From contig CAMBPV010000001.1 of NCBI GenBank assembly GCA_945869695.1, forward strand, positions 1-64,000: a stretch of 64,000 nucleotides of DNA, in the 5' to 3' direction. A program made the position numbers and the translations under genes. The notes under the pieces were generated by a model. It made no database searches and was not told where the DNA came from. It worked only from the letters and a program-made list of their open reading frames with translations. This document shows positions 2,118 to 24,739 of the stretch, in pieces; position 1 is the stretch's first letter, and each line of letters starts with the position of its first letter. Source of the stretch: Prosthecobacter debontii. Lineage in GTDB: Bacteria > Verrucomicrobiota > Verrucomicrobiia > Verrucomicrobiales > Verrucomicrobiaceae.

Positions 2118-5100
2118 ATGGCAACCAAAGGCAACAAGAGCATCAAGTACGTTTATAATTTCGGAGCAGGTAAGGCAGATGGTGACGGAACCATGAAAGC
2201 CTTGTTGGGAGGCAAAGGAGCCAACCTCGCTGAAATGAGCCGCATCGGCCTCCCCGTCCCTCCTGGATTCACAGTCACGACTGAAGTCTGCACTTATTTT
2301 TACGACCACAAGAAGACCTACCCTGCCGCCATGGAAGCTCAGATGCGCGCAGGCATCGCTTCGATGGAGAAGATCATGAACAGCAAGTTCGGTGATGCGA
2401 AAGGACTCCCCCTTCTCGTTGCTGTCCGTTCCGGTGCACGTGATTCCATGCCAGGCATGATGGACACGATTCTGAACCTTGGTCTGAATGACGAAACGGT
2501 TCTTTCACTCGCCAAGGTGACCAACAACGAGCGTTTCGCCTGGGACTGCTACCGCCGCTTCGTTCAAATGTATGGCGACGTGGTGCTCGGCGTCCAAAAG
2601 CGCGAGGGAGAAGATCACGAACCGTTTGAGGTCGTCATCGAAACCTTCAAGCACGAGCGTTACCATGCAGATATTGAAGATGCCAAGATGACCGCTGACG
2701 ACCAGAAGGAACTGGTGAAGCGTTTCAAGAAGCTCGTGAAAGACCGCACCGGTCACTCCTTCCCGAGCGACCCATGGGCTCAACTCCTTGGTGCTGCAGG
2801 TGCTGTGTTCGGAAGCTGGATGAACGATCGTGCTATTGTGTACCGTCGTAAATACAACATCCCCGCTGAATGGGGCACCGCTGTAAACGTGCAGGCAATG
2901 GTTTACGGAAACACTGGCGAAACCTCGGGCTCGGGCGTGGCCTTCACCCGCAATCCAGCCAATGGCGTCAATGAATTCTACGGTGAGTTCCTGATCAACG
3001 CTCAAGGTGAGGACGTCGTCGCAGGCGTCCGCACACCAGAACCCGTCGCACAGCTGGAAAAAGAAATGCCGAAGCCTTTTGCCGAACTGATGAAGGTTCG
3101 CAAAACTTTGGAGAAACATTTCAAGGATGTTCAAGACGTTGAGTTCACCATTCAGGAGGGCAAGCTGTTCATGCTTCAGACCCGGAATGGAAAACGCACC
3201 GCTATGGCTGCGCTGAAATTCAGCATGGACATGGTGAAAGAAAAATTGATCGACTGGGAGACGGCCGTCCTCCGCAATCCTGCCGACCAGTTGGACCAAT
3301 TGCTCGCTCCGGTTTTCGATCTCGCAGATTTGAAGAAGGCAAAAGCTCTCGCGACTGGCCTGCCGGCCGGTCCAGGCGCAGCTTCTGGCCGAGTCTACCT
3401 CAATGCTGACCGCGCCGTCATTGCTGAAGGCAAAGGTGAGAAAGTTCTCCTCGTCCGGAATGAAACCAGCCCCGAAGATCTTCGTGGCATGATCGCCGCA
3501 GAAGGTATCCTTACAGCCAAAGGCGGTGTGTCCTCACACGCCGCACTCGTTGCCCGTCAGATGGGCAAGGTTTGCATCTGCGGTGCGGCGGCGTTGGACA
3601 TCAACTACGACAAGAAGACTGTTACCGTATCAGGCCAGACCTTCAAGGAAGGTGACTTCATGTCCATCGATGGAACGAGCGGTATCGTCTACGGTGGCGA
3701 ACTGAAAACAGCTCCTTCCGAGATCATCACCGGAATTCTTCACGGGGATAAGGCTGCACTCGCTACTGAGAAACTGAAAGGCTTCAAGCAACTCATGGAC
3801 TGGTGCGCTAAGGCAACCAAGCTCCAAGTCCGCACCAATGCCGACAATCCAGAGCAGACCGAAAACGCGATTGCTTTCGGCGCACAAGGCATCGGACTCA
3901 CCCGCACAGAGCACATGTTCTTTGAAGGTGACCGCATCGACGCCATGCGTGAGATGATCCTCGCCACCACGGAGAAAGATCGTCGTGCCGCACTTGGCAA
4001 GTTGCTTCCTTACCAGAGAGAGGACTTCACTGGAATCTTCAAGGCACTCAAGGGATTGCCTGCGACGATCCGTCTTCTTGACCCACCGCTTCATGAGTTC
4101 CTCCCTCACACAGAGGCTCAGCAGAAAGATCTTTCCGCGAAGACTGGCATCAGTGTGGATAAAATCCAAGCTCGTGTGAATTCACTGCATGAGTTCAATC
4201 CAATGCTCGGACATCGCGGTTGCCGTCTCGGTATCGCGTATCCTGAGATCACTGAAATGCAGGCGCGCGCAATCTTTGAGGCCGCCGCTGATGTTTCCAA
4301 AAAAGGCATCAAGGTGAAACCCGAAGTGATGATTCCTCTGGTTGGCTTCAAGAAAGAACTCGACCTTCAGGTCGCAATCGTGCATAATGTTGCGAAGCAG
4401 GTGATGCAGGAAAAGAAAGTTAAGCTCGACTACCTCGTCGGCACGATGATTGAAGTGCCGCGCGGAGCACTGACGGCAGATGAGATTGCTCAGACTGCGC
4501 AGTTCTTTAGCTTCGGAACTAACGATCTCACTCAAACCGCGCTCGGCATCAGTCGTGACGACATGGGTAACTTCCTCCTTCCTTATACGGAGAACGAGAT
4601 CTTCAAGAAGAACCCCTTCGCCACACTCGATCAAACCGGCGTCGGCCAGCTGATGGAGATCGCCATCGATAAGGGTCGCCGCACCAATCCAGGCATTAAG
4701 CTTGGGATCTGCGGTGAACACGGTGGTGACCCGGAGAGCGTCAAGTTCTGTCACCGCCTAGGCCTCAGCTACGTCAGCTGCAGCCCATACCGAGTTCCCG
4801 TCGCCCGCCTGGCCGCTGCTCAAGCCGCCATCGAGGAGAAGCGCCGCGCTGCAGCGGCCCCAACAAATGTCCGAGGAAACAGCGCAGCCAAGTCGGCTGC
4901 CCCAAAAGCAACCGCTAAGAGCGCTGCTTCACCGGCAAAAAAAACAAACGCAACCAACAAAACAACAAGGAGTAATACCATGGCTAAAAAAGCAGCAGCG
5001 AAGAAAGCACCAGCAAAGAAGGCCCCAGCAAAAAAGGCAGTCGCCAAGAAAGCCCCTGCTAAGAAGGCAGTAGCTAAGAAGGCTCCTGCTAAGAAGGCCC

Positions 5101-5129
5101 CAGCCAAGAAGGCTGCCAAGAAGAAATAG
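2118..5129 (+). CDS. ppdK: Pyruvate, phosphate dikinase with histone-H1-like C-terminal tail
   Basis: A 1003-residue pyruvate phosphate dikinase (pyruvate + ATP + Pi to and from PEP + AMP + PPi), a reversible enzyme of glycolysis/gluconeogenesis. The N-terminal nucleotide-binding domain begins GAGKADGDG...[10 protein letters not shown]. The phosphohistidine swivel motif [12 protein letters not shown] places the catalytic His at 474. The PEP/pyruvate domain ends with [10 protein letters not shown] (Cys865) and [16 protein letters not shown]. The family fold finishes near residue 904, giving the usual length of about 900. Beyond it come about 50 residues of Ala/Lys/Thr/Ser linker and then 49 residues of KKAPA-type repeats like bacterial H1 (HC1/HC2-type) tails. 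That tail has its own in-frame Met955 behind a strong SD, so it may also be made separately. A strong terminator follows. The enzyme call is certain; the role of the tail is unknown. Confidence 0.97.
4967..4972 (+). promoter_or_regulatory. Internal Shine-Dalgarno AAGGAG inside ppdK
   Basis: A perfect AAGGAG sits 7 bases before an in-frame ATG (4980) within the ppdK reading frame. It is one of the best ribosome-binding sites in this window, better than that of ppdK itself, and would direct independent translation of the lysine-rich tail. Confidence 0.55.
4980..5129 (+). CDS. Candidate nested histone-H1-like small protein (49 aa), same frame as ppdK tail
   Basis: In-frame internal start at ppdK codon 955, preceded by AAGGAG with optimal spacing. 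The product would be 49 residues of only Met, Ala, Lys, Pro and Val, built from KKAPA and KKAVA units, and extremely basic. It resembles stand-alone bacterial histone-H1-like nucleoid proteins such as chlamydial HC1/HC2 tails. Two readings are possible: a free DNA-binding protein made from an internal site, or a once-separate downstream H1-like gene now fused to ppdK. Sequence alone cannot tell whether both products are made. Confidence 0.45.
4983..5126 (+). repeat. Tandem [10 protein letters not shown]-coding repeat
   Basis: About nine near-tandem 15-base units, each encoding Lys-Lys-Ala-(Pro/Val)-Ala or a close variant. Mixed AAA/AAG and GCA/GCC/GCT codons show the array has diverged at synonymous sites while the peptide pattern is kept. 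Confidence 0.85.
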
Positions 5130-14144: not shown

Positions 14145-14179
14145 AAGGCCGGACTTCCAACGAAGTCCGGCCTTTTTTT
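14145..14179 (+). terminator. Rho-independent terminator after gapA
   Basis: A 12-bp stem AAGGCCGGACTT (14145-14156) / AAGTCCGGCCTT (14163-14174) followed by a T-run to 14179. Confidence 0.93.
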
Positions 14180-14365
14180 GCGCACCTGATTAGGCCGAAA
14201 ACAGACAACACACGCCTTCTCGGCAAGTTTAGATTCCAATGATTAAAACCACATTAAACATGAATTCTCCTTAACAATAAAAGCAATTTAATCTAATATT
14301 TATGGTTTTGCATTGATTTATTTCAAATTAGAGATTCATTATCGAGTCTTTTCGTATTTTTGATA
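14180..14365. other. AT-rich leader upstream of the copper/heme unit
   Basis: About 185 bases with markedly higher A+T than the flanking genes. It must contain the promoter of the MbnP-MbnH fusion gene, but I cannot assign -35/-10 hexamers with confidence. No riboswitch or tRNA is recognisable. Confidence 0.4.
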
Positions 14366-16192
14366 ATGAAAATCTCAGCCTCGCGGCGCCAATCTCTATT
14401 TATGTGTAGATCGAGGGCGATCTCTCTCGTGATTTTCGTCGTCACATGGGTCGCTGCGAATTCGAACGCACTTGAGGTTGGACACAGAGACATCGCAATC
14501 GAGATCAAAGCCACATGGGCAGCGAAGCCTCTAGCCCTGAGTCAGGACGTGGAGACGGACGACATGAAGGTCAAGGTCACGCGGATCGATTACCTTCTGA
14601 GCCACGCCTCCCTGAAACGAAAAGATGGCTATTGGTTGCAAACCAGAGACTGGTTTGCCTCATTCAAGCACTCAGCCGGAAGGGACACAGCCCTGATCTT
14701 TGGCGTCCCTGCCGAGGAGTTCACGGCCATCCGATTTGCAGTGGGAGTAGACCCCGAAACGAATCGCTCAGATCCCCATCTCCGAGCACCCGAACATCCG
14801 CTAAATCCTGAAGTCAACGGCCTCCATTGGGGCTGGCAGGGTGGCTACATTTTCATGGCCCTCGAAGGCCACTACACCTCAAAAAGTGGGAATGATGGTG
14901 CCTACTCCCTCCATTTGGCAAATGATCCACACCTGGTGTGGGTCGAGGTGCCTTTGAAACTGCCACCAGCAGGTGTCGGCACGATCCATCTGACTCTCGA
15001 CCTCGAGCAGGTGTTCCACGGCAAAAACAAGATCAACCTCACTCAAGGTGAAAACTCGACCCACTCCCGTGAGGGTGACCCACTGGCACCCAAGTTAGCT
15101 GCAAACCTCCAGAATGCCTTCCGCCTGAAAACTCTTTCGGCTGATCAATTCCAATCTCCTTCAAAGGCCCCTGCGCTGAAGAATCGACTATCCTCCCCTT
15201 ATCCATTATCGATCTCTGCTCGATTTCCAAAAGTTCAGCTTCCTCCAGACAACTTTCCGACCATCGACGGCGTCGCCCTCGGGGAAAGACTCTTTCATGA
15301 GACGAATCTGTCCAAAACCAACAAACAATCCTGCGCCAGCTGCCACGACTCCAGCGCCGCATTTGCAGACCCGGGAAAAAGATTCAGCACCGGAGCCGAG
15401 GGCCAGATCGGATTCAGAAATGCGATGCCGCTTTTCAATCTTCTCTGGGAGAAGGAATTCTTTTGGGATGGCCGGGTTTCGGGCTTGAGGAATCAAGTCC
15501 TGAAGCCAGTTCAAGATCCGCACGAGATGAATGAGACCTTGGAGCGGGTTATCGGAAAACTGAACAGCAAGAAGGGTTATGCGGAGCGATTCGAAAAGAC
15601 ATTCGGCGACCCAAAGATCACGACTGAGCGAATCAGTCTCGCCCTCGAGCAATACCTGCACTCGCTGATCTCACAAGACTCCAAGTTTGACCGAGCCGCA
15701 CTCAATCAAACGACTCTCACGCCCTCTGAAGCAAGAGGACTGCAACTTTTTGTGACGGAAAGTGACCCCAAGCGAGGACTCAAAGGTGCCGACTGTTTTC
15801 ATTGCCATGGAGGCATGCTCTTTACCAATCATGAGTTCCACAATAATGGGCTCAAACTTGCAACTCATGACATCGGTCGCATGACGGTGACTCGATCTCC
15901 GGCGGATAAGGGAAAGTTCAAGACCCCATCCCTGAGAAACATTGCACTCACCGCGCCCTACATGCATGACGGTCGTTTTGAGACGCTCGAAGAGGTGGTC
16001 GAGCACTACGATCATGGCGTGGTCTCCACCGATACTCTGGATCCCAATCTCGCGAAACACCCGACTCAAGGCTTGGGACTCACCTCCGAAGACAAGGCCG
16101 ACCTCGTGGCCTTTCTACGCACCCTGACGGATCCGAAATACAACGAGCAGCGCCCCACTCTTTCTCAAACGGCACCCAAGACAGAACCATGA
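14366..16192 (+). CDS. MbnP-like copper protein fused to MbnH-like di-heme cytochrome c peroxidase
   Basis: 608 residues from the ATG at 14366 (an in-frame TTG lies 6 bases earlier). A signal anchor (about 15-35) leads into an MbnP-family domain (about 36-255) with the family pattern RIDYLLSHASL, an IRFAVGVDPETN segment, and LHWGWQGGYIFMALEGHY with Trp155 and Trp157. Residues about 280-600 are a MauG/CcpA/MbnH-type di-heme domain. Its two heme motifs are CASCH (323-327) and CFHCH (477-481), a FFWDGR motif carries the conserved inter-heme Trp367, and TAPYMHDGRF lies near the end. In methanotrophs MbnH and MbnP are separate proteins, and MbnH uses H2O2 to turn a Trp of MbnP into kynurenine, which creates a copper site. 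Here enzyme and substrate domain are one chain. The stop overlaps the next ATG (ATGA), so it is coupled to a copper-radical oxidase gene. Confidence 0.85.
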   Translation: MKISASRRQSLFMCRSRAISLVIFVVTWVAANSNALEVGHRDIAIEIKATWAAKPLALSQDVETDDMKVKVTRIDYLLSHASLKRKDGYWLQTRDWFASFKHSAGRDTALIFGVPAEEFTAIRFAVGVDPETNRSDPHLRAPEHPLNPEVNGLHWGWQGGYIFMALEGHYTSKSGNDGAYSLHLANDPHLVWVEVPLKLPPAGVGTIHLTLDLEQVFHGKNKINLTQGENSTHSREGDPLAPKLAANLQNAFRLKTLSADQFQSPSKAPALKNRLSSPYPLSISARFPKVQLPPDNFPTIDGVALGERLFHETNLSKTNKQSCASCHDSSAAFADPGKRFSTGAEGQIGFRNAMPLFNLLWEKEFFWDGRVSGLRNQVLKPVQDPHEMNETLERVIGKLNSKKGYAERFEKTFGDPKITTERISLALEQYLHSLISQDSKFDRAALNQTTLTPSEARGLQLFVTESDPKRGLKGADCFHCHGGMLFTNHEFHNNGLKLATHDIGRMTVTRSPADKGKFKTPSLRNIALTAPYMHDGRFETLEEVVEHYDHGVVSTDTLDPNLAKHPTQGLGLTSEDKADLVAFLRTLTDPKYNEQRPTLSQTAPKTEP

Positions 16193-19100
16193 AAATCCTA
16201 CTCAATCAACTTCCGCTAGCCACCCTTTTGCTATCGCTGATCACCTCCGATATGAGGGGAGAAGTAGGGCATGCAGCAGATGATGAATTGGCCCTCGCCG
16301 CCGCCCAGATCGCATCGAGGTCCACTCCCGGGGCCGCCGCTGCTTCGGGCACGACGGCAACTTTGGCCGCTGCCGTCGATCCCGCAGACTGCATTAACTC
16401 CGGGGCCTGGGGACCCGTGATCAACTGGACCCCGCACATCCCCGTATCGGCAGCTAACTTACCAGATGGTCGCATTCTCACTTTTGCCTCAAATCAAAGG
16501 ACCTCCTTCCCCGTCGGCCCTGAATTCACTTTCGCCGCCACTTGGAACCCCGCGACCGGTGTTTTCCAGGAGGTCAATCACCCGTCTCATGACATGTTTT
16601 GCGGAGGGATCACACTCATGCCCGATGGCAGAGTGATGGTGAACGGTGGTCGCAATTCAACCCCCTTTACCAGTGTCTTCGACTGGCGAAACAACAGCTG
16701 GACACGACTGCAAAACATGACTGGTGGACGCTGGTACAACACATCCGTTTCCATGCCCAATGGTCACGTATTCACAGCGACCGGTGACGGCACTGGCATC
16801 AATACCACCGAAAGATGGAGCCCCAGTGGTTGGACCCTTCTCACCGGTATGCCATGGCCCGCCATCCTGGGTTCCGACGCTGGCTACTTCAAGCACTGGC
16901 ACCCCTTCATGAGCGTAGGTCCCGATGGCCGAGTGCTCCACTTTGGTCCTACGGATACGATGCATTGGTTTACGACCGATGGCACTGGGAGCTTTGTCAA
17001 TGCTGGGACGGCAGTTCCGGGAACCCATTACCCTAAGGAAGGCTGCTTTGCCATGTATGACGAGGGGAAAGTCTTGGTGGCAGGGGGATCAATCAACACC
17101 AATTCCAGCCCGATCGATGGAAGTATCGGGATCAGCACCTCAGCAGCCTACATCGTGGACATGACGACAAACCCACCCAGGGCAACGGTCACCGGTTCGA
17201 TGGCTTTTCCCCGTCAATTCGCAAACGCCGTCGTTCTGCCGAGCGGAGAAGTGCTGGTCATGGGTGGAAACAGCCCCGGCGTAAAGTTCAGCGACCAAGG
17301 CTCCATCCTGCCGTGTGAAATTTGGAACCCCCGCACGGGAACATGGCGCACGGTGGCCAGCATCACCGTGCCTCGGAACTATCACAGCATCTCACTTTTG
17401 CTCGCAGATGGACGTGTGATGGCGGCCGGAGGTGGACTCGGAGGAGCGGATCACCGCGATGCTCAGCTTTACACACCGCCCTGTCTTTTCACAGCCACAG
17501 GCACCGCCGTCACACGCCCCGTTTTGACTTCCGCACCGAGCGTGGTTGCTCCGGGCTCAGTGTTTAACGTCGTCGGCACGCCTGGTTTGGCCAAATTTGC
17601 CCTCATTCGCATGGCATCACTCACTCACTCGGTCAACACGGATCAACGTTATCTCTCCGTCCCGTTTACCGAGACCACCGCCGGAAACTATCAACTCACC
17701 ACACACACCAATGCCAACGTTCTATTGCCTGGCTATTGGATGCTCTTTGGGATCAATGCGACGGGTGCCCACTCGATATCCCAGATCATGCATGTCAATG
17801 CCGCAGCGGGAGTCACACTCATCAATCCGGGAAACCAAACATCCAATGTAGGAACTCCCTCATCCCTCCCGATCAACGCGACTGCCCCAACGGGGACAAC
17901 CCTAGTCTACAGCGCCTCCGGCTTACCCGCTGGACTCAGTATGAATGCAGCATCGGGGCTGATCTCTGGGACTCCCACGACCAGCGGCATCTTCAATGTA
18001 ACAATCACCGCTAATGGAGGGGGATTGACATCGACGCAAAACTTCACGTGGACGACCTTGCTCATCAATACTGGCTCTGGCACCATCCTCCGAGAATGGT
18101 GGACCGGAATCAACGGTGGTGTTCTTGTCAGTGATCTCACCAGCAGCGCATCCTACCCAAACAGCCCCGCGGGCAGTAATCAGCTCACTTCTTTTGAGAC
18201 GCCTACGGATTGGGCCGACAACATGGGTCAGCGCGTCCGCGGATACATTCATCCACCCGTCACCGGGCAGTACCGATTTTGGATTGCCTCCAACGATGAG
18301 GGACAACTCAGACTCTCCACCAACCGAGACCCAGCCAATTCAACTTTGATCGCCGGAGTTCCCCAGTGGAGCGGCCCCAGAGAATGGAACAAGTTTCCTC
18401 AGCAAACATCCAGTCTCATCACTCTCCAAGCAGGCCAGTCCTACTATGTCGAGGCCCTGATGAAAGAAGGCGCAGGTGCTGACAATCTCGCGATCGCCTG
18501 GGCCACTCCCGGCAGCAGCACTCCGGTTGTCATTGCAGGACAATATCTTTCACCTTGGGTGAACAATAGTCCTCCGCTGCTCACCAATCCCGGCAATCGA
18601 GTTCACGTCATCGGATCACCCGTGAACGTGAATGTGATCGCCACGGATGCGAACAATGATCCCCTTTCCTATAGCGCCAGCGCATTGCCGACGGGACTGA
18701 GTATCAACACGAACACTGGCATCATCACAGGCACACCAACTGCGACAGGCACATTCAACAGCACCGTGAGGGTGACAGATGGCCGCAGCCCTGTGGTCTC
18801 GGCCACTTTTGTTTGGACCATCAATCTCATCGTGAATCTCAACCCACCCATCGCATCCCCACCGAGCACGACGGGTGTCGCCCTAAACTACACTTCTGGC
18901 AGCACCGGAGGCGCCAATGTGCGATACAAATGGAGCTGGGGCGACGGCACAGCGGACACGGCCTTCAGCAGCAATCCTGCTGCCACACACACCTTCGCTT
19001 CCCCGGGCCGCTACCAAATCACGATCACCGCCACCGATGATTCAGGTCGCATCACGACCTCCACATTCTACCAGGGCATTCATGCGCCTCTGTCGACCCT

Positions 19101-22100
19101 GCGCCCGACTTCCTCCAGCAGCATTGCCTTCGAAGACAGACCTGCTGGCACGAATGATCGCGTCTGGTGCGTGAATCCGGACAATGACAGCGTGGCAGTC
19201 TTCGATGCCGTTACTCGGGCGCGAGCCGCCGAGATCAATGTGGGCACCGCACCTCGCGCTCTTGCAATTGCACCCGACGGTCGTGTCTGGGTCTCCAATG
19301 TTGAAAGCAGCACCATCAGCATCATCAACCCATCCACACTGACAGTTGTTCAGACTCTCACCCTCGCTCGCGCGGCACGTCCATTCGGCATCGCTTTCGA
19401 TCCCGACGGAACCGATGGGTGGGTGGCCTGTGAAGGGACAGGACTTCTGCTTCGGATGAATCCAACCACTGGAACCCAATCCGCCAGCCTCAATGTGGGT
19501 CTCAATGCAAGACACCTTTCGGTCACCGCCAATAGTTCCCGAGTGCTGGTGTCACGGTTTATCACGCCTCCTTTACCCGGCGAAAGCACAGCCACCATCA
19601 ACAACACGGACCAAACCGGAGGCGAGGTGATCAGCGTGCTCACCAGCACACTTGCCATCGAGAAAACAACCATTCTCACCCACAGCACCCGCGCAGACTC
19701 GATCACAACCGGCCGAGGCATTCCAAACTACCTTGGCCCTGCAGTGATCTCACCCGATGGACTGACGGCGTGGGTTCCCTCGAAACAAGACAACATCAAA
19801 CGCGGCATGCTGAGAGATGGCTCTCAACTCACGCACGATCAGACGGTTCGCAGTGTCGCTAGCCGAATCGTCATCACAGGCGGCATTGCAGCCAACACAG
19901 ACGATATGCTTGGCCGAGTTGATTTTGACAATGCGGGTATCGCTAGCAATGGAACCTTTGAACGAACGGGCCTCTACTTTTTCACGGCACTCGAGGGCAG
20001 CCGGGAAATCGGAGTGGTGGATGTCTGGGGCAAAAAGGAGATCAAACGCTTTTCGGCGGGGCGCGCCCCACAGGCTGTCGTCACCTCTCCCGATGGCCGC
20101 ACTGTTTATGCTCATAACTTCATGGACCGCACGATCACCGTGCATGATGTCGGCCCGTTGTTGGATGGGGCTGATGCAACCCCCACTCTGACGGCCACAT
20201 TGAACTGCGTCACCACTGAGCGCTTATCCGCCCCCGTTCTACTCGGGAAACAGCATTTCTACGACGCAACAGACTCCCGAATCGCATTCCAACAATACAT
20301 CTCCTGCGCCTCCTGTCACAATGACGGCGCTCAAGATGGGCGCACTTGGGACTTCACCGGATTTGGTGAAGGACTCCGGAACACGATCACGCTGCGCGGT
20401 CACGGCGGCACCGCACACGGCCCCCTTCATTGGACGGGAAACTTCGATGAAGTGCAGGACTTTGAGAATCAAATTCGAAATCTCAATCTCGGCACCGGTC
20501 TGATCAGCGGCGGAAATCCCCATCCCCCGATGGGCACCGCCAATGCCGGTCGCAGCGCTGATCTCGATGCACTCGCCGCTTATGTGACCTCCCTTAGCTC
20601 ACAAGACATCAGTCCATTCCGCAGCACAAATGGCACGCTCACGACGGCCGCAGTTGCAGGTAAATCGGTCTTCGAGAACACAAATTGTGCCCAGTGTCAC
20701 TCCGGCCCTGCATTTACCAATAGCTCTCCCAATGTGGCGGCCAATATCGGCACGATCAAACCGACCACCGGCAATCGGCTCGGCACCTCGCTCACGGGAT
20801 TAGACGTTCCGACGTTACGCGGCCTCTGGGCGACAGGGCCCTATCTTCACGATGGTTCCGCCGCGACGCTGGCTGCAGCCGTTCAGGCCCATCAAGGCGT
20901 GAACTTAAATGCAACCGATCTGAGTAATCTCGTTTCCTACCTCCAGCAGATCGATGGCGGAGAAGTGTCAGCTCCCGTTTTGGCCGCACCGGCCATTACG
21001 CTCACAGGTCCGACCTCGGCACCCGGCGCTTTTGATGTGACCCTTAGTTCAACGCAAATCGTCACAGGCCTCACAGCCAGTGAATTTGTGCTGTCCAATG
21101 GCTCAGCCACGGCACTCAATGGATCAGGGGCGAGTTATACGCTGAGAATCACGCCAACCACTCCAGGGCCAGTTTCCGTCTCCCTTCCAGCAGGACGTTG
21201 CTTCAATGTGGCAAACATCGGCAACATCGCCTCAAACTCTTTGAGCATCACTTTAGTGAGCGGCGCACTGGTCCTCACGAGCTCAGATGTCGGACCCGTC
21301 ATCGTTCCCGGAACCACGTCTGCCAGCAACGGCACTTACACTCTGACTGCCGCGGGTGAAGACATCTACTTCAATGAAGACGGACTCCGTTTTGCCTTCC
21401 AGCAAGTCACTGGCGACGGAGAAATCATTGCGCGTGTCACCAGCCAGACTTTGACCAATGAGTGGGCCAAAGCAGGTGTCATGATTCGCGAAAACCTATC
21501 AGGGGGATCACGCCATGTCACCGCGTTCACGACACCCATTGCGGCTGGAAACGGTTTCGGAATGGTGTGGAGACCCACAGCTAACGCCGCGACGGACTAT
21601 GCGCGCGGCCCGAATCTGAATGCTGCCCCAAATAATTGGGTCAGGCTGGTGCGCGCGGGAACGACGATTACTGCCTATGCTTCAGCCAATGGCACATCAT
21701 GGACAGAGATTAGCTCTGCCACACTCGCCGCCCTGCCGAGCTCTGTTTACTTCGGGCTAGCCCTTTCAGCTGGGGACAATTACTCAGGAGCAGTCGGCAC
21801 CGGGACGTTTGATAACGTCAGCATCAATGGCGCACTCAACCCCACGCCGCCATCAGTGACTCTTGTGGCTTCACCGACGACGGTCAGCGGAGCCTTCACG
21901 GTTACCGCGACGTTCACCCAGAATATCACGGGTCTGAGTTCATCCGATTTCATCATTACCAATGGCACCGCATCCGCCATCTCGGGGAGCGGCACCCAAT
22001 ACTCGGTCACCATCACACCAAACGTTGCAGGAGCTGTTTCAATCACTCTCCCCGCAGGTTCTGTCACCAATGCAGCAGGTCTCGGAAACATCGCTTCCAA

Positions 22101-24009
22101 TACGATGAACGTAACGTTCAGCCCTCCAGTATCTGGTGCTCTCACGGGAGTCGATGTCGGTCGCGTATTGGTCCCCGGTTCCACGAGCCTGAGCCCTGCG
22201 AGTGGGCTCTATACCATCACTGCCTCGGGTGACGACATCTTTTTCAATGCCGACGGTTTCCATTTTGCCCAAACTCGAATCACCGGAGACGGAGAAATCC
22301 GAGCCCGCGTGACTGGCCAGACAAACACGAATGATTGGGCCAAAGCAGGCATCATGATGCGAGAAACGCTGACTGCCGGATCCCGCCACTCCACGGTCTT
22401 CACAACCCCCGCAACAACGGGGAACGGCTTCGGCATCGTTTCCCGCACGATAATCGACGGAACCACTTCATACCAAGGTCCTCGACCCATGAGTGCGCCG
22501 CCCAATAACTGGGTAAGACTGGTGAGGTCAGGAAACACACTGACCGGTTTTGTATCCTCAAATGGCACCACCTGGACACAATTAGGCACAACGACTTTCA
22601 GTGCCCTTGCTCCCACTCTGCACTTTGGGCTCGTGGTCACTGCGACGGATGACTACGCCTCAACCACCTCCACTTCAACTTTCGACAACGTTCAGATCAC
22701 CGGAGCTCCAGGTGCTGCCATGGCCTCCCGCTCCTCCACACGACTCCCCACCCCAGCTTCGGTCACCTCCGCAGATCCGAGCCTCCGACTGGGATCCACG
22801 GGAGATTCGGCACTCAGCCTTTCGTTCACAAGATCCACCTCTGCAGACACTCGATACGAATTACAGCTCTTGTCTGACCTTTCGAAGTCACCCTCAGGTT
22901 GGAGACGCGCCGGCACTGAGCCGACGATCACCCCAGGCGCGGCAGGTGGGCAGACCCTTTCCTATTCGGATTTTTCAAAGGAATTTGCGGGTTCTAATCA
23001 AGGCTTTGCTCGCCTCCACATTGAACAAGACACGAACGACGACGGATTCGCGGAAACCGAGAGAAACGGAGAGGTCTTCGGTTTCACCCGAACTCTCTAC
23101 CCCGTCGGAACCGCAACCGCAGGCAATCCATTTGCGGCTCCCTCACAGGGTTCGGGAGTGATTGCATCCGTTGGCACTCACTCGTTCACGCTCGATAACA
23201 CCTTGTCGCTTCCGAGCGGCAAAGCTTGCTATGCAGAGGTGATCAAAGGCAAATATGCGGGACATCGATTCGAAATTGACGAATCCGCCAGCCGTGGACG
23301 CACGATCAGTTTAGAGTCTAGGGCAGCCCAAAGCACCTTGAATGCTCTGCCAACAGATCTCAGAGGTGACAGTGTCGAGATCAGGCCACATCGCACCGTT
23401 TCCGAACTCTTCCCAGAAAGCCGTTTCACGGGCGCAACAAACATGGATTCCGCAGACCGACTTCTCTTTCACAACGGAAATAGCTTCGAAACACTTTGGC
23501 TTCACAAAAGCTCCAATGGCAGCCCGCGATGGGTCAAAGAAGGGGATATCACTCTGTCGAGCGCAGGTTCCCGGATCATTGGCGTCACGGAAGGTCTTTT
23601 GATCCAAATTCGCAACACCCCCGTTAGCCTCACCTTCAGTGGCATCGTCCGACAAAACGCCGTGGCACTCCCCCTCAAAACCGGAGCTCAACTGGTTGCC
23701 AATGTCTGGCCCGCAGGCATGTCCCCCAATTCCCTGGGTCTCACAGTTGCCAACGGCTTCGTGGGGAGTCAGAATCCAGCGAGTTCTGACCAAGTCCATG
23801 TTTGGTTGGGCGATACTAAAGTCGGCGCATCGGGCTATCTCACCCATTACCTTTTGAGGTCAACCACCCTTCACCAATGGACAACCACCGGTGACGCGGC
23901 TCTTGCGAGTCAAAACGAATCGACTCTCCTCCCCATCATGCGGGCAGCATTCATCAAAAGCACCACCGATAAGCCAATTTTCCTCTCCCCCTTATCCTGG
24001 GCGCCTTAA
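16189..24009 (+). CDS. Giant secreted copper-radical oxidase/PA14/propeller/c-heme multidomain protein (2606 aa)
   Basis: A signal peptide is followed by a kelch-type galactose/glyoxal-oxidase domain (about 50-540). All copper-radical ligands seem present: HDMFC (Cys138) and RWYNTS (Tyr183) for the thioether pair, NYHS (Tyr398, His399), and LTHSVNTDQR (His480). The Trp that stacks on the cofactor in galactose oxidase is not evident. Next come a putative Ig module (542-615), PA14 (631-790), a second Ig (796-865), PKD (885-954), and a YVTN-like propeller (991-1337). Two c-heme motifs follow, CASCH (1373-1377) and CAQCH (1500-1504), with a peroxidase-like LRGLWATGPYLHDGS. Then there are three Ig/laminin-like modules, two of which (1691-1884 and about 1982-2175) are close internal repeats. 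The end resembles a verrucomicrobial conserved C-terminal domain. The oxidase would make H2O2 beside a heme domain. It overlaps the MbnP-MbnH gene by 4 bases. Confidence 0.85.
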   Translation: MKILLNQLPLATLLLSLITSDMRGEVGHAADDELALAAAQIASRSTPGAAAASGTTATLAAAVDPADCINSGAWGPVINWTPHIPVSAANLPDGRILTFASNQRTSFPVGPEFTFAATWNPATGVFQEVNHPSHDMFCGGITLMPDGRVMVNGGRNSTPFTSVFDWRNNSWTRLQNMTGGRWYNTSVSMPNGHVFTATGDGTGINTTERWSPSGWTLLTGMPWPAILGSDAGYFKHWHPFMSVGPDGRVLHFGPTDTMHWFTTDGTGSFVNAGTAVPGTHYPKEGCFAMYDEGKVLVAGGSINTNSSPIDGSIGISTSAAYIVDMTTNPPRATVTGSMAFPRQFANAVVLPSGEVLVMGGNSPGVKFSDQGSILPCEIWNPRTGTWRTVASITVPRNYHSISLLLADGRVMAAGGGLGGADHRDAQLYTPPCLFTATGTAVTRPVLTSAPSVVAPGSVFNVVGTPGLAKFALIRMASLTHSVNTDQRYLSVPFTETTAGNYQLTTHTNANVLLPGYWMLFGINATGAHSISQIMHVNAAAGVTLINPGNQTSNVGTPSSLPINATAPTGTTLVYSASGLPAGLSMNAASGLISGTPTTSGIFNVTITANGGGLTSTQNFTWTTLLINTGSGTILREWWTGINGGVLVSDLTSSASYPNSPAGSNQLTSFETPTDWADNMGQRVRGYIHPPVTGQYRFWIASNDEGQLRLSTNRDPANSTLIAGVPQWSGPREWNKFPQQTSSLITLQAGQSYYVEALMKEGAGADNLAIAWATPGSSTPVVIAGQYLSPWVNNSPPLLTNPGNRVHVIGSPVNVNVIATDANNDPLSYSASALPTGLSINTNTGIITGTPTATGTFNSTVRVTDGRSPVVSATFVWTINLIVNLNPPIASPPSTTGVALNYTSGSTGGANVRYKWSWGDGTADTAFSSNPAATHTFASPGRYQITITATDDSGRITTSTFYQGIHAPLSTLRPTSSSSIAFEDRPAGTNDRVWCVNPDNDSVAVFDAVTRARAAEINVGTAPRALAIAPDGRVWVSNVESSTISIINPSTLTVVQTLTLARAARPFGIAFDPDGTDGWVACEGTGLLLRMNPTTGTQSASLNVGLNARHLSVTANSSRVLVSRFITPPLPGESTATINNTDQTGGEVISVLTSTLAIEKTTILTHSTRADSITTGRGIPNYLGPAVISPDGLTAWVPSKQDNIKRGMLRDGSQLTHDQTVRSVASRIVITGGIAANTDDMLGRVDFDNAGIASNGTFERTGLYFFTALEGSREIGVVDVWGKKEIKRFSAGRAPQAVVTSPDGRTVYAHNFMDRTITVHDVGPLLDGADATPTLTATLNCVTTERLSAPVLLGKQHFYDATDSRIAFQQYISCASCHNDGAQDGRTWDFTGFGEGLRNTITLRGHGGTAHGPLHWTGNFDEVQDFENQIRNLNLGTGLISGGNPHPPMGTANAGRSADLDALAAYVTSLSSQDISPFRSTNGTLTTAAVAGKSVFENTNCAQCHSGPAFTNSSPNVAANIGTIKPTTGNRLGTSLTGLDVPTLRGLWATGPYLHDGSAATLAAAVQAHQGVNLNATDLSNLVSYLQQIDGGEVSAPVLAAPAITLTGPTSAPGAFDVTLSSTQIVTGLTASEFVLSNGSATALNGSGASYTLRITPTTPGPVSVSLPAGRCFNVANIGNIASNSLSITLVSGALVLTSSDVGPVIVPGTTSASNGTYTLTAAGEDIYFNEDGLRFAFQQVTGDGEIIARVTSQTLTNEWAKAGVMIRENLSGGSRHVTAFTTPIAAGNGFGMVWRPTANAATDYARGPNLNAAPNNWVRLVRAGTTITAYASANGTSWTEISSATLAALPSSVYFGLALSAGDNYSGAVGTGTFDNVSINGALNPTPPSVTLVASPTTVSGAFTVTATFTQNITGLSSSDFIITNGTASAISGSGTQYSVTITPNVAGAVSITLPAGSVTNAAGLGNIASNTMNVTFSPPVSGALTGVDVGRVLVPGSTSLSPASGLYTITASGDDIFFNADGFHFAQTRITGDGEIRARVTGQTNTNDWAKAGIMMRETLTAGSRHSTVFTTPATTGNGFGIVSRTIIDGTTSYQGPRPMSAPPNNWVRLVRSGNTLTGFVSSNGTTWTQLGTTTFSALAPTLHFGLVVTATDDYASTTSTSTFDNVQITGAPGAAMASRSSTRLPTPASVTSADPSLRLGSTGDSALSLSFTRSTSADTRYELQLLSDLSKSPSGWRRAGTEPTITPGAAGGQTLSYSDFSKEFAGSNQGFARLHIEQDTNDDGFAETERNGEVFGFTRTLYPVGTATAGNPFAAPSQGSGVIASVGTHSFTLDNTLSLPSGKACYAEVIKGKYAGHRFEIDESASRGRTISLESRAAQSTLNALPTDLRGDSVEIRPHRTVSELFPESRFTGATNMDSADRLLFHNGNSFETLWLHKSSNGSPRWVKEGDITLSSAGSRIIGVTEGLLIQIRNTPVSLTFSGIVRQNAVALPLKTGAQLVANVWPAGMSPNSLGLTVANGFVGSQNPASSDQVHVWLGDTKVGASGYLTHYLLRSTTLHQWTTTGDAALASQNESTLLPIMRAAFIKSTTDKPIFLSPLSWAP
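21259..22715 (+). repeat. Internal duplication of a laminin-like module in the 2606-aa protein
   Basis: Two copies, 21259-21840 and 22132-22715, each encode about 195 residues. They share DVG...VLVPG or VIVPG, a TGDGEI-I/R-ARVT core, WAKAG-x-M-x-RE, and an NNWVRLVR segment. Ig-like linkers separate them. The copies differ at many positions, so the duplication is old. Confidence 0.85.
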
Positions 24010-24112: not shown

Positions 24113-24739
24113 ATGAAATCAAAACTTCTTCAAAGATTGCGCTCAAGACAGATTTCCAATTTCCAAAAGCATCGTGGATTTACCCTGATCGAGTTGCTTG
24201 TGGTGATCACGATCATTGCGATCTTGGCAGGTGCCTCCTTTCCTGTGATTAATGGAGTCATGGCACGTGCGAGAAAGGTGAAAGTCATGAGCGTGGCCAA
24301 AGACCTGCAGGTGGCAATCAAATCCTACCAAACCGAGTATAACCGATACCCTGGCCCTGCGGGTGCAGACTTGACTCTCGACACGTCCAGCGACCTTGAC
24401 TTGGTTTCAGTTTTATTGGGAAACGCAGGCACCGGTGCCTACATGAACCCCCGTGAAATCAAGTTCATCGAATTGCCCATGGCTAAGAATGGTGTTGGAG
24501 GGCTTGTTGGAACTGGTGGAGCCGGGGGATTCACGCTCCTTGATGAGTGGGGTCTAGGTTTCACCGTGATCATGGACAACAATTACGATAATCAAATTCT
24601 CAACCCGGATGCCGCTAACTCGGATCCCCGAGTCTCTACAGGTGCGAGCCCTCAACTGCCAATGAGCGCCATTGTCTATAGCAACGGGCCGGATAAGGCA
24701 CCTACGACCAAAGACGACATTGCTTCTTGGCGGAATTAA
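24113..24739 (+). CDS. Type II secretion-like pseudopilin (prepilin-type N-terminal methylation domain)
   Basis: A 208-residue protein with a short basic leader and the class III prepilin signal GFTLIELLVVITIIAILAGASFPVI (Gly at about 23, Glu at +5 of the mature chain). The globular part has the major-pseudopilin character of GspG: an early AKDLQVAIKSYQTEYNRYPG helix-loop and an Asp-rich C-terminal portion. Verrucomicrobia encode many such solitary pseudopilins. No prepilin peptidase or secretin lies nearby, so the partner machine is elsewhere. It ends 4 bases from the end of the convergent M23 peptidase gene. Confidence 0.88.
   Translation: MKSKLLQRLRSRQISNFQKHRGFTLIELLVVITIIAILAGASFPVINGVMARARKVKVMSVAKDLQVAIKSYQTEYNRYPGPAGADLTLDTSSDLDLVSVLLGNAGTGAYMNPREIKFIELPMAKNGVGGLVGTGGAGGFTLLDEWGLGFTVIMDNNYDNQILNPDAANSDPRVSTGASPQLPMSAIVYSNGPDKAPTTKDDIASWRN

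Follow-up and report, generated by a model that had tools for sequence, protein, structure and literature searches.

A putative secreted two-gene copper enzyme unit of Verrucomicrobiota in which an MbnP-MbnH fusion may serve as the copper-maturation partner of a copper-radical oxidase

The di-heme enzyme MbnH reportedly converts the first Trp of the WxW motif of MbnP to kynurenine. A copper site formed by conversion of Trp to kynurenine is known in MopE and CorA, and the same chemistry has only been suggested for the di-heme partners of these two proteins (PMC3912023, PMC3621798). In another described arrangement, mtoX, a copper oxidase yielding H2O2, is found beside SCO1 and MauG, sometimes fused (PMC5739008), and in Bacillus YtkA/CtaK works with Sco in CuA assembly (PMC13344008, PMC9145763). 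Here we compare these systems with a two-gene locus, P0001 and P0002, in the window, that is, the whole stretch of 64,000 nucleotides that was analysed.

The source genome belongs to the Verrucomicrobiaceae (4.9 Mb, 333 contigs), and its closest relatives as judged by the oxidase are Verrucomicrobiaceae MAGs. By sequence, the gene upstream of P0001 encodes a glyceraldehyde-3-phosphate dehydrogenase. Because a terminator-like hairpin (approximately 14147-14180) lies between that gene and P0001, and because the first gene downstream of P0002 starts at 24113, we take the unit to consist of P0001 and P0002 alone. Both proteins carry signal peptides, with export predicted from the N-terminal sequences. 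The features of the unit are collected in Table 1. Elsewhere in the window, the last part (4842-5126) of the pyruvate phosphate dikinase frame (2118-5129) encodes an Ala/Lys/Pro tail that resembles histone H1 and has AKKAPAKK repeats.

Table 1. Features of the P0001-P0002 unit, in window coordinates.
Feature	Position	Strand	Remark
P0001, exported MbnP-MbnH fusion, 608 aa	14366..16192	+	kept in relatives
MbnP (PF20243) domain, residues 42-229	14489..15052	+	105.9 bits vs cut-off 27 (Pfam profile)
W155-x-W157 motif	14828..14836	+	W155 = expected kynurenine precursor
MbnH/MauG-type di-heme domain, residues 293-595	15242..16150	+	best fold match 6e1c
Heme motif 1, CASCH, residues 323-327	15332..15346	+	
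Inter-heme Trp367, in FFWDGR	15464..15466	+	invariant 23/23
Heme motif 2, CFHCH, residues 477-481	15794..15808	+	
Tyr548, axial-ligand position	16007..16009	+	Tyr in MbnH 6e1c, Met in peroxidase 1iqc
ATGA stop/start overlap of P0001 and P0002	16189..16192	+	4-nt overlap also in most relatives
P0002, exported multidomain copper-radical oxidase/cytochrome, 2606 aa	16189..24009	+	
Galactose-oxidase-type copper-radical domain, residues 67-540	16387..17808	+	solved galactose oxidases, 9g8h 3.5e-87
Cys138, Tyr-Cys cross-link position	16600..16602	+	Cys in 74/80, Ala in 6 Thiotrichaceae
Tyr183, radical Tyr position	16735..16737	+	81/81
Tyr398-His399 copper ligands	17380..17385	+	81/81
His480 copper ligand	17626..17628	+	80/80 readable
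YVTN beta-propeller, residues 976-1335	19114..20193	+	1l0q; hydrazine synthase beta 5c2v_B
Di-heme module, residues 1336-1605	20194..21003	+	kin of MauG/peroxidases and hydrazine synthase gamma
Heme motif CASCH, residues 1373-1377	20305..20319	+	
Trp1415, aligned with inter-heme Trp367	20431..20433	+	invariant in module alignment
Heme motif CAQCH, residues 1500-1504	20686..20700	+	
His1568, candidate axial ligand replacing Met/Tyr	20890..20892	+	nearly invariant, 41 sequences
C-terminal region, residues 2191-2606	22759..24006	+	conserved

A sequence-only reading of the window had identified P0001 as a fusion of MbnP and MbnH, and the family profiles bear this out: both PF20243 and PF03150 (CCP_MauG; 178 bits, cut-off 25.6) are matched above their cut-offs, and the MbnH part can be aligned with 6e1c, a solved structure of MbnH, at 1.3e-35. 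The NCBIfam equivalog cut-offs are missed by P0001 for both TIGR04052 (39 vs 140 bits) and TIGR04039 (233.6 vs 362.85 bits). Trp367, Gln377, Pro381 and Glu387 of P0001 align with 6e1c, and the two CxxCH motifs together with this Trp/Gln/Pro/Glu set around heme 1 agree with a MauG/MbnH-type enzyme, the set itself being common to peroxidases also. The axial position is occupied by Tyr in 24/24 MauG/MbnH-type sequences compared, and the distal His of peroxidase 1iqc is absent from P0001 in the alignment. In the MbnP part, the W155-x-W157 motif aligns with the WxW of the solved 7l6g, albeit in a weak match (E 0.16); W155 is invariant in the fusions (30/30 and 22/22), and W157 is present in 30/30 and 20/22. 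The predicted structure of the fusion is of too low confidence (mean pLDDT 76, pTM 0.63) to tell whether the MbnP and MbnH parts touch.

The copper-radical oxidase domain of P0002, which matches PF09118 at 61.2 bits, is followed by Ig-like, PA14-like and PKD domains, the YVTN propeller, the di-heme module, two DUF1349 domains and the conserved C-terminal region. The earlier reading had also listed five copper-radical residues in P0002; judged by alignment to solved galactose oxidases all five are kept, and our recheck confirmed them along with its coordinates, the ATGA overlap, both c-heme pairs and Trp367. The ligand geometry of P0002 is predicted from the alignment to solved 9g8h. The stacking Trp290 of galactose oxidase was not found, the position being Gly201 in P0002 and Trp in 0/81 relatives; this position is also variable among known AA5 enzymes. 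Trp182, directly before the radical Tyr183, is invariant (81/81). Ala stands at the Cys138 position, with the other ligands kept, in six Thiotrichaceae oxidases (L127, L128, L132, L133, L138 and L143), which from their sequences are possibly radical oxidases without the cross-link. After the signal peptide, at P0002 residues ~25-45 (window ~16261-16323), lies a motif HA..D...A..A (e.g. GHAADDELALAAAQ), which is shared from the Verrucomicrobiota oxidases to those of Leucothrix, Trueperaceae and Rhodothermales. Further along the chain, the di-heme module is homologous to the MbnH part of P0001 (hhalign probability 99.6). The placement of His1568 near the axial position in the alignment suggests that the hemes of this module may be ligated differently. 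The NCBIfam cut-off for hydrazine synthase beta-gamma is not reached by P0002 (80.9 vs 1250 bits).

We compared 57 related genomes, and an oxidase with the heme module was found in 20 of them. One specific MbnP-MbnH clade was present in all 20 oxidase-bearing genomes and was found in 0/37 of the genomes without the oxidase, so that the co-occurrence required by the earlier reading holds in related genomes (Fisher test, 8e-16, uncorrected for relatedness). Most of the genomes compared are MAGs with contig breaks, the presence counts ignore shared ancestry, and absence from a MAG is weak evidence. In a tree of 42 MbnP-MbnH fusions, in which one G019 fragment was left unplaced, all oxidase-linked copies fall in one clade (support 95), joined there by one contig-cut copy and by three copies from genomes in which the linked oxidase has been lost but an unlinked one is kept. 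Most of the oxidase/MbnP-MbnH pairs overlap by 4 nt. Among the bearers of the pair is a relative in culture, Brevifollis gellanilyticus (L093). Chance adjacency of the two genes, which was also considered, is ruled out by this conserved overlap and by the tracking of the oxidase by the clade. Of 12 additional Verrucomicrobial genomes in which the oxidase is unlinked, 11 also have a P0001-like fusion of 50-55% identity, these fusions being judged by identity, outside the tree, and genomes overlapping the other search being counted once. Among 145 genomes sampled across the phylum, the oxidase was found in one, the source genome itself, so within Verrucomicrobiota the unit has a narrow distribution.

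Fusions of the sister clades are present in genomes without the oxidase. Two sister-clade fusions (L074 and L077) adjoin GSDH (glucose/sorbosone dehydrogenase-like) proteins. The source genome holds a second MbnP-MbnH fusion, 46% identical, which overlaps a sulfatase-like gene (L084, contig C217, 2764-4503). The GSDH-type and sulfatase-like neighbours of the sister clades show that MbnP-MbnH does not go with copper oxidases alone. Other MbnP-MbnH fusions adjoin a CusA-type pump and CopRS-like regulators. In a same-genus genome (L046:1326-19547), an array runs from MbnP through a 2368-aa GSDH-type protein and an MbnP-MbnH fusion to the oxidase.

A scan of GTDB contigs for the oxidase returned 80 loci; outside Verrucomicrobiota the oxidase has a patchy distribution in Gammaproteobacteria, Anaerolineae, Phycisphaerae, Acidobacteriota, Rhodothermales and Trueperaceae. 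The oxidase, propeller and di-heme module are joined in nearly all loci with a long enough contig; in two (L086 and L096) the oxidase chain is divided into two frames. A MauG-type di-heme gene different from MbnP-MbnH lies beside the oxidase in 11 gammaproteobacterial loci, and in 11/11 of these neighbours the Trp/Gln/Pro/Glu set and the axial Tyr are complete. A YtkA-like domain scored above cut-off, as a fusion, in four of the seven gammaproteobacterial MauG-type neighbours scanned, and in Leucothrix pacifica a small separate protein adjoining the di-heme gene gives a sub-threshold YtkA-like match. Five more genomes hold close homologues of the MauG-type neighbour, either unlinked to the oxidase or on a separate contig, and one Phycisphaerae contig breaks off within an apparent MauG-type partner gene directly downstream of the oxidase. 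No partner was detected in oxidase-bearing Rhodothermales, Trueperaceae, Methyloglobulus and some Chloroflexota genomes, which rules out a universal or obligatory partner. Cocleimonas, whose oxidase has C138A, keeps an unlinked YtkA-like and MauG-type pair that is cut by the contig end. This pair fits copper delivery, and equally other roles; it rules out a joint loss of Cys138 and partner in Thiotrichaceae. In a Blastocatellia genome (L185), MbnP is fused to cytochrome c and is followed by an MbnH with an apparent CusF-like C-terminal domain; this genome's oxidase lies elsewhere, unlinked.

Since the pairing is kept in relatives and a different copper-domain/heme partner is found in other phyla, the heme partner probably helps to build or run the copper enzyme. 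The presence of two unrelated copper domains with MauG-type enzymes beside the same oxidase, together with the published mtoX-SCO1-MauG operons, speaks for a partner dedicated to copper maturation. We therefore tentatively favour, at somewhat less than even confidence, a secreted two-gene copper enzyme unit in which P0001 is the dedicated copper-maturation partner of the P0002 oxidase. P0002 would be an alcohol or aldehyde oxidase of the galactose-oxidase type within a very large exported protein. By oxidising Trp155 in the MbnP half of P0001 to kynurenine, the MbnH half would create a copper site, and the MbnP domain would then hold copper or pass it to the oxidase outside the cytoplasm. A wider generalization is more doubtful, namely that the coupling of a MauG-type di-heme enzyme to a copper-binding domain (MbnP, YtkA-like or SCO1) is a recurrent bacterial device for the oxidative loading of secreted copper oxidases with copper, which in the present unit may draw its H2O2 from the oxidase itself.

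Horseradish peroxidase keeps a copper-radical oxidase active in vitro. Radical-site activation is what we would regard as the main rival to copper maturation, given the precedent of the fungal tandem Perox-AlcOx pair, in which a heme peroxidase activates the neighbouring copper-radical oxidase (PMC9770985). Here either MbnH or the internal di-heme module of P0002 would maintain the oxidase in its active Cu(II)-tyrosyl-radical state, with MbnP docking or sensing copper. Heme partners do lie beside or inside the oxidase in every lineage seen; however, the partners have the MauG-type axial Tyr and not the peroxidase Met, P0001 lacks the distal His of 1iqc, and the copper-type domain on each partner is left unexplained, so we consider this role unlikely.

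The two genes could instead be only co-regulated, with MbnP-MbnH serving general envelope copper handling and the di-heme module of P0002 passing oxidase electrons to the respiratory chain. MbnP-MbnH clades outside the unit adjoin copper/heavy-metal pumps and regulators, and fusion to a cytochrome domain is a known way of making dehydrogenases. Nevertheless, the oxidase-linked fusions are one clade that tracks the oxidase and not other genes (20/20), and the 4-nt gene overlap is tight, which makes mere co-regulation decidedly unlikely.

The copper-loading proposal of the sequence-only reading stands in its general direction, given the unrelated copper-domain/MauG-type partner beside the oxidase in other phyla; its specific self-priming loop, in which oxidase-derived H2O2 would let MbnH form the kynurenine copper site that then supplies the oxidase, is possible and gained no support. 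Every part of it is present, signal peptides on both proteins included. Fusions of the sister clades occur without the oxidase, however, so the oxidase is not needed as their H2O2 source; several distant oxidase-bearing genomes are without a detected partner, and the di-heme module of P0002 could itself consume H2O2. As a copper-free oxidase makes no H2O2, the loop could amplify and not self-start, and we judge it improbable. Direct modification of the oxidase (at the Tyr-Cys link or Trp182) or of its heme module by the MauG-type partner appears very unlikely too, since the Tyr-Cys link in known copper-radical oxidases forms with copper and O2 alone and Cocleimonas retains the partner though its oxidase is without Cys138. 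The points in its favour are that Trp182 is invariant beside the radical Tyr and that MauG modifies another protein, methylamine dehydrogenase (PMC5739008, PMC3912023).

Because the conserved unit ties an MbnP-MbnH pair to a named enzyme whose H2O2 is easily assayed, it makes two questions testable: how bacteria metallate copper enzymes outside the cytoplasm, and which functions the widespread MbnP/MbnH and orphan MauG-type genes have. A search of the open-access literature found no description of the two-gene unit or of the combined architecture, and the oxidase-propeller-di-heme architecture, present in several phyla, appears to be new to the open literature searched. The MbnP/MbnH pair of methanobactin operons, with MopE/SACCP and CorA/CorB, shares with P0001 the MbnP domain with WxW and a di-heme enzyme with an axial Tyr, whereas P0001 is a single-chain fusion, under both TIGRFAM equivalog cut-offs, that is coupled to a copper-radical oxidase. 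The AA5 enzymes (galactose oxidase, aryl alcohol oxidase, GlxA) have in common with P0002 the Kelch propeller and E-set and the five copper/radical residues; P0002 differs in the Gly at the Trp290 position, the Trp before the radical Tyr and the fused propeller and di-heme module, and it is far under the GlxA cut-off. Hydrazine synthase beta-gamma likewise has a YVTN propeller and then a di-heme c module, but P0002 is far under the curated cut-offs and is fused to a copper-radical oxidase. In the fungal tandem peroxidase-alcohol oxidase, a copper-radical oxidase gene is also paired with a heme enzyme (PMC9770985), but the fungal peroxidase is of an unrelated class and the copper domain is absent there. 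Finally, the mtoX-SCO1-mauG operons (methanethiol oxidase) similarly join an H2O2-making copper oxidase to a copper chaperone and a MauG-type enzyme (PMC5739008), whereas the oxidase and the copper domain of the present unit are both unrelated to theirs.
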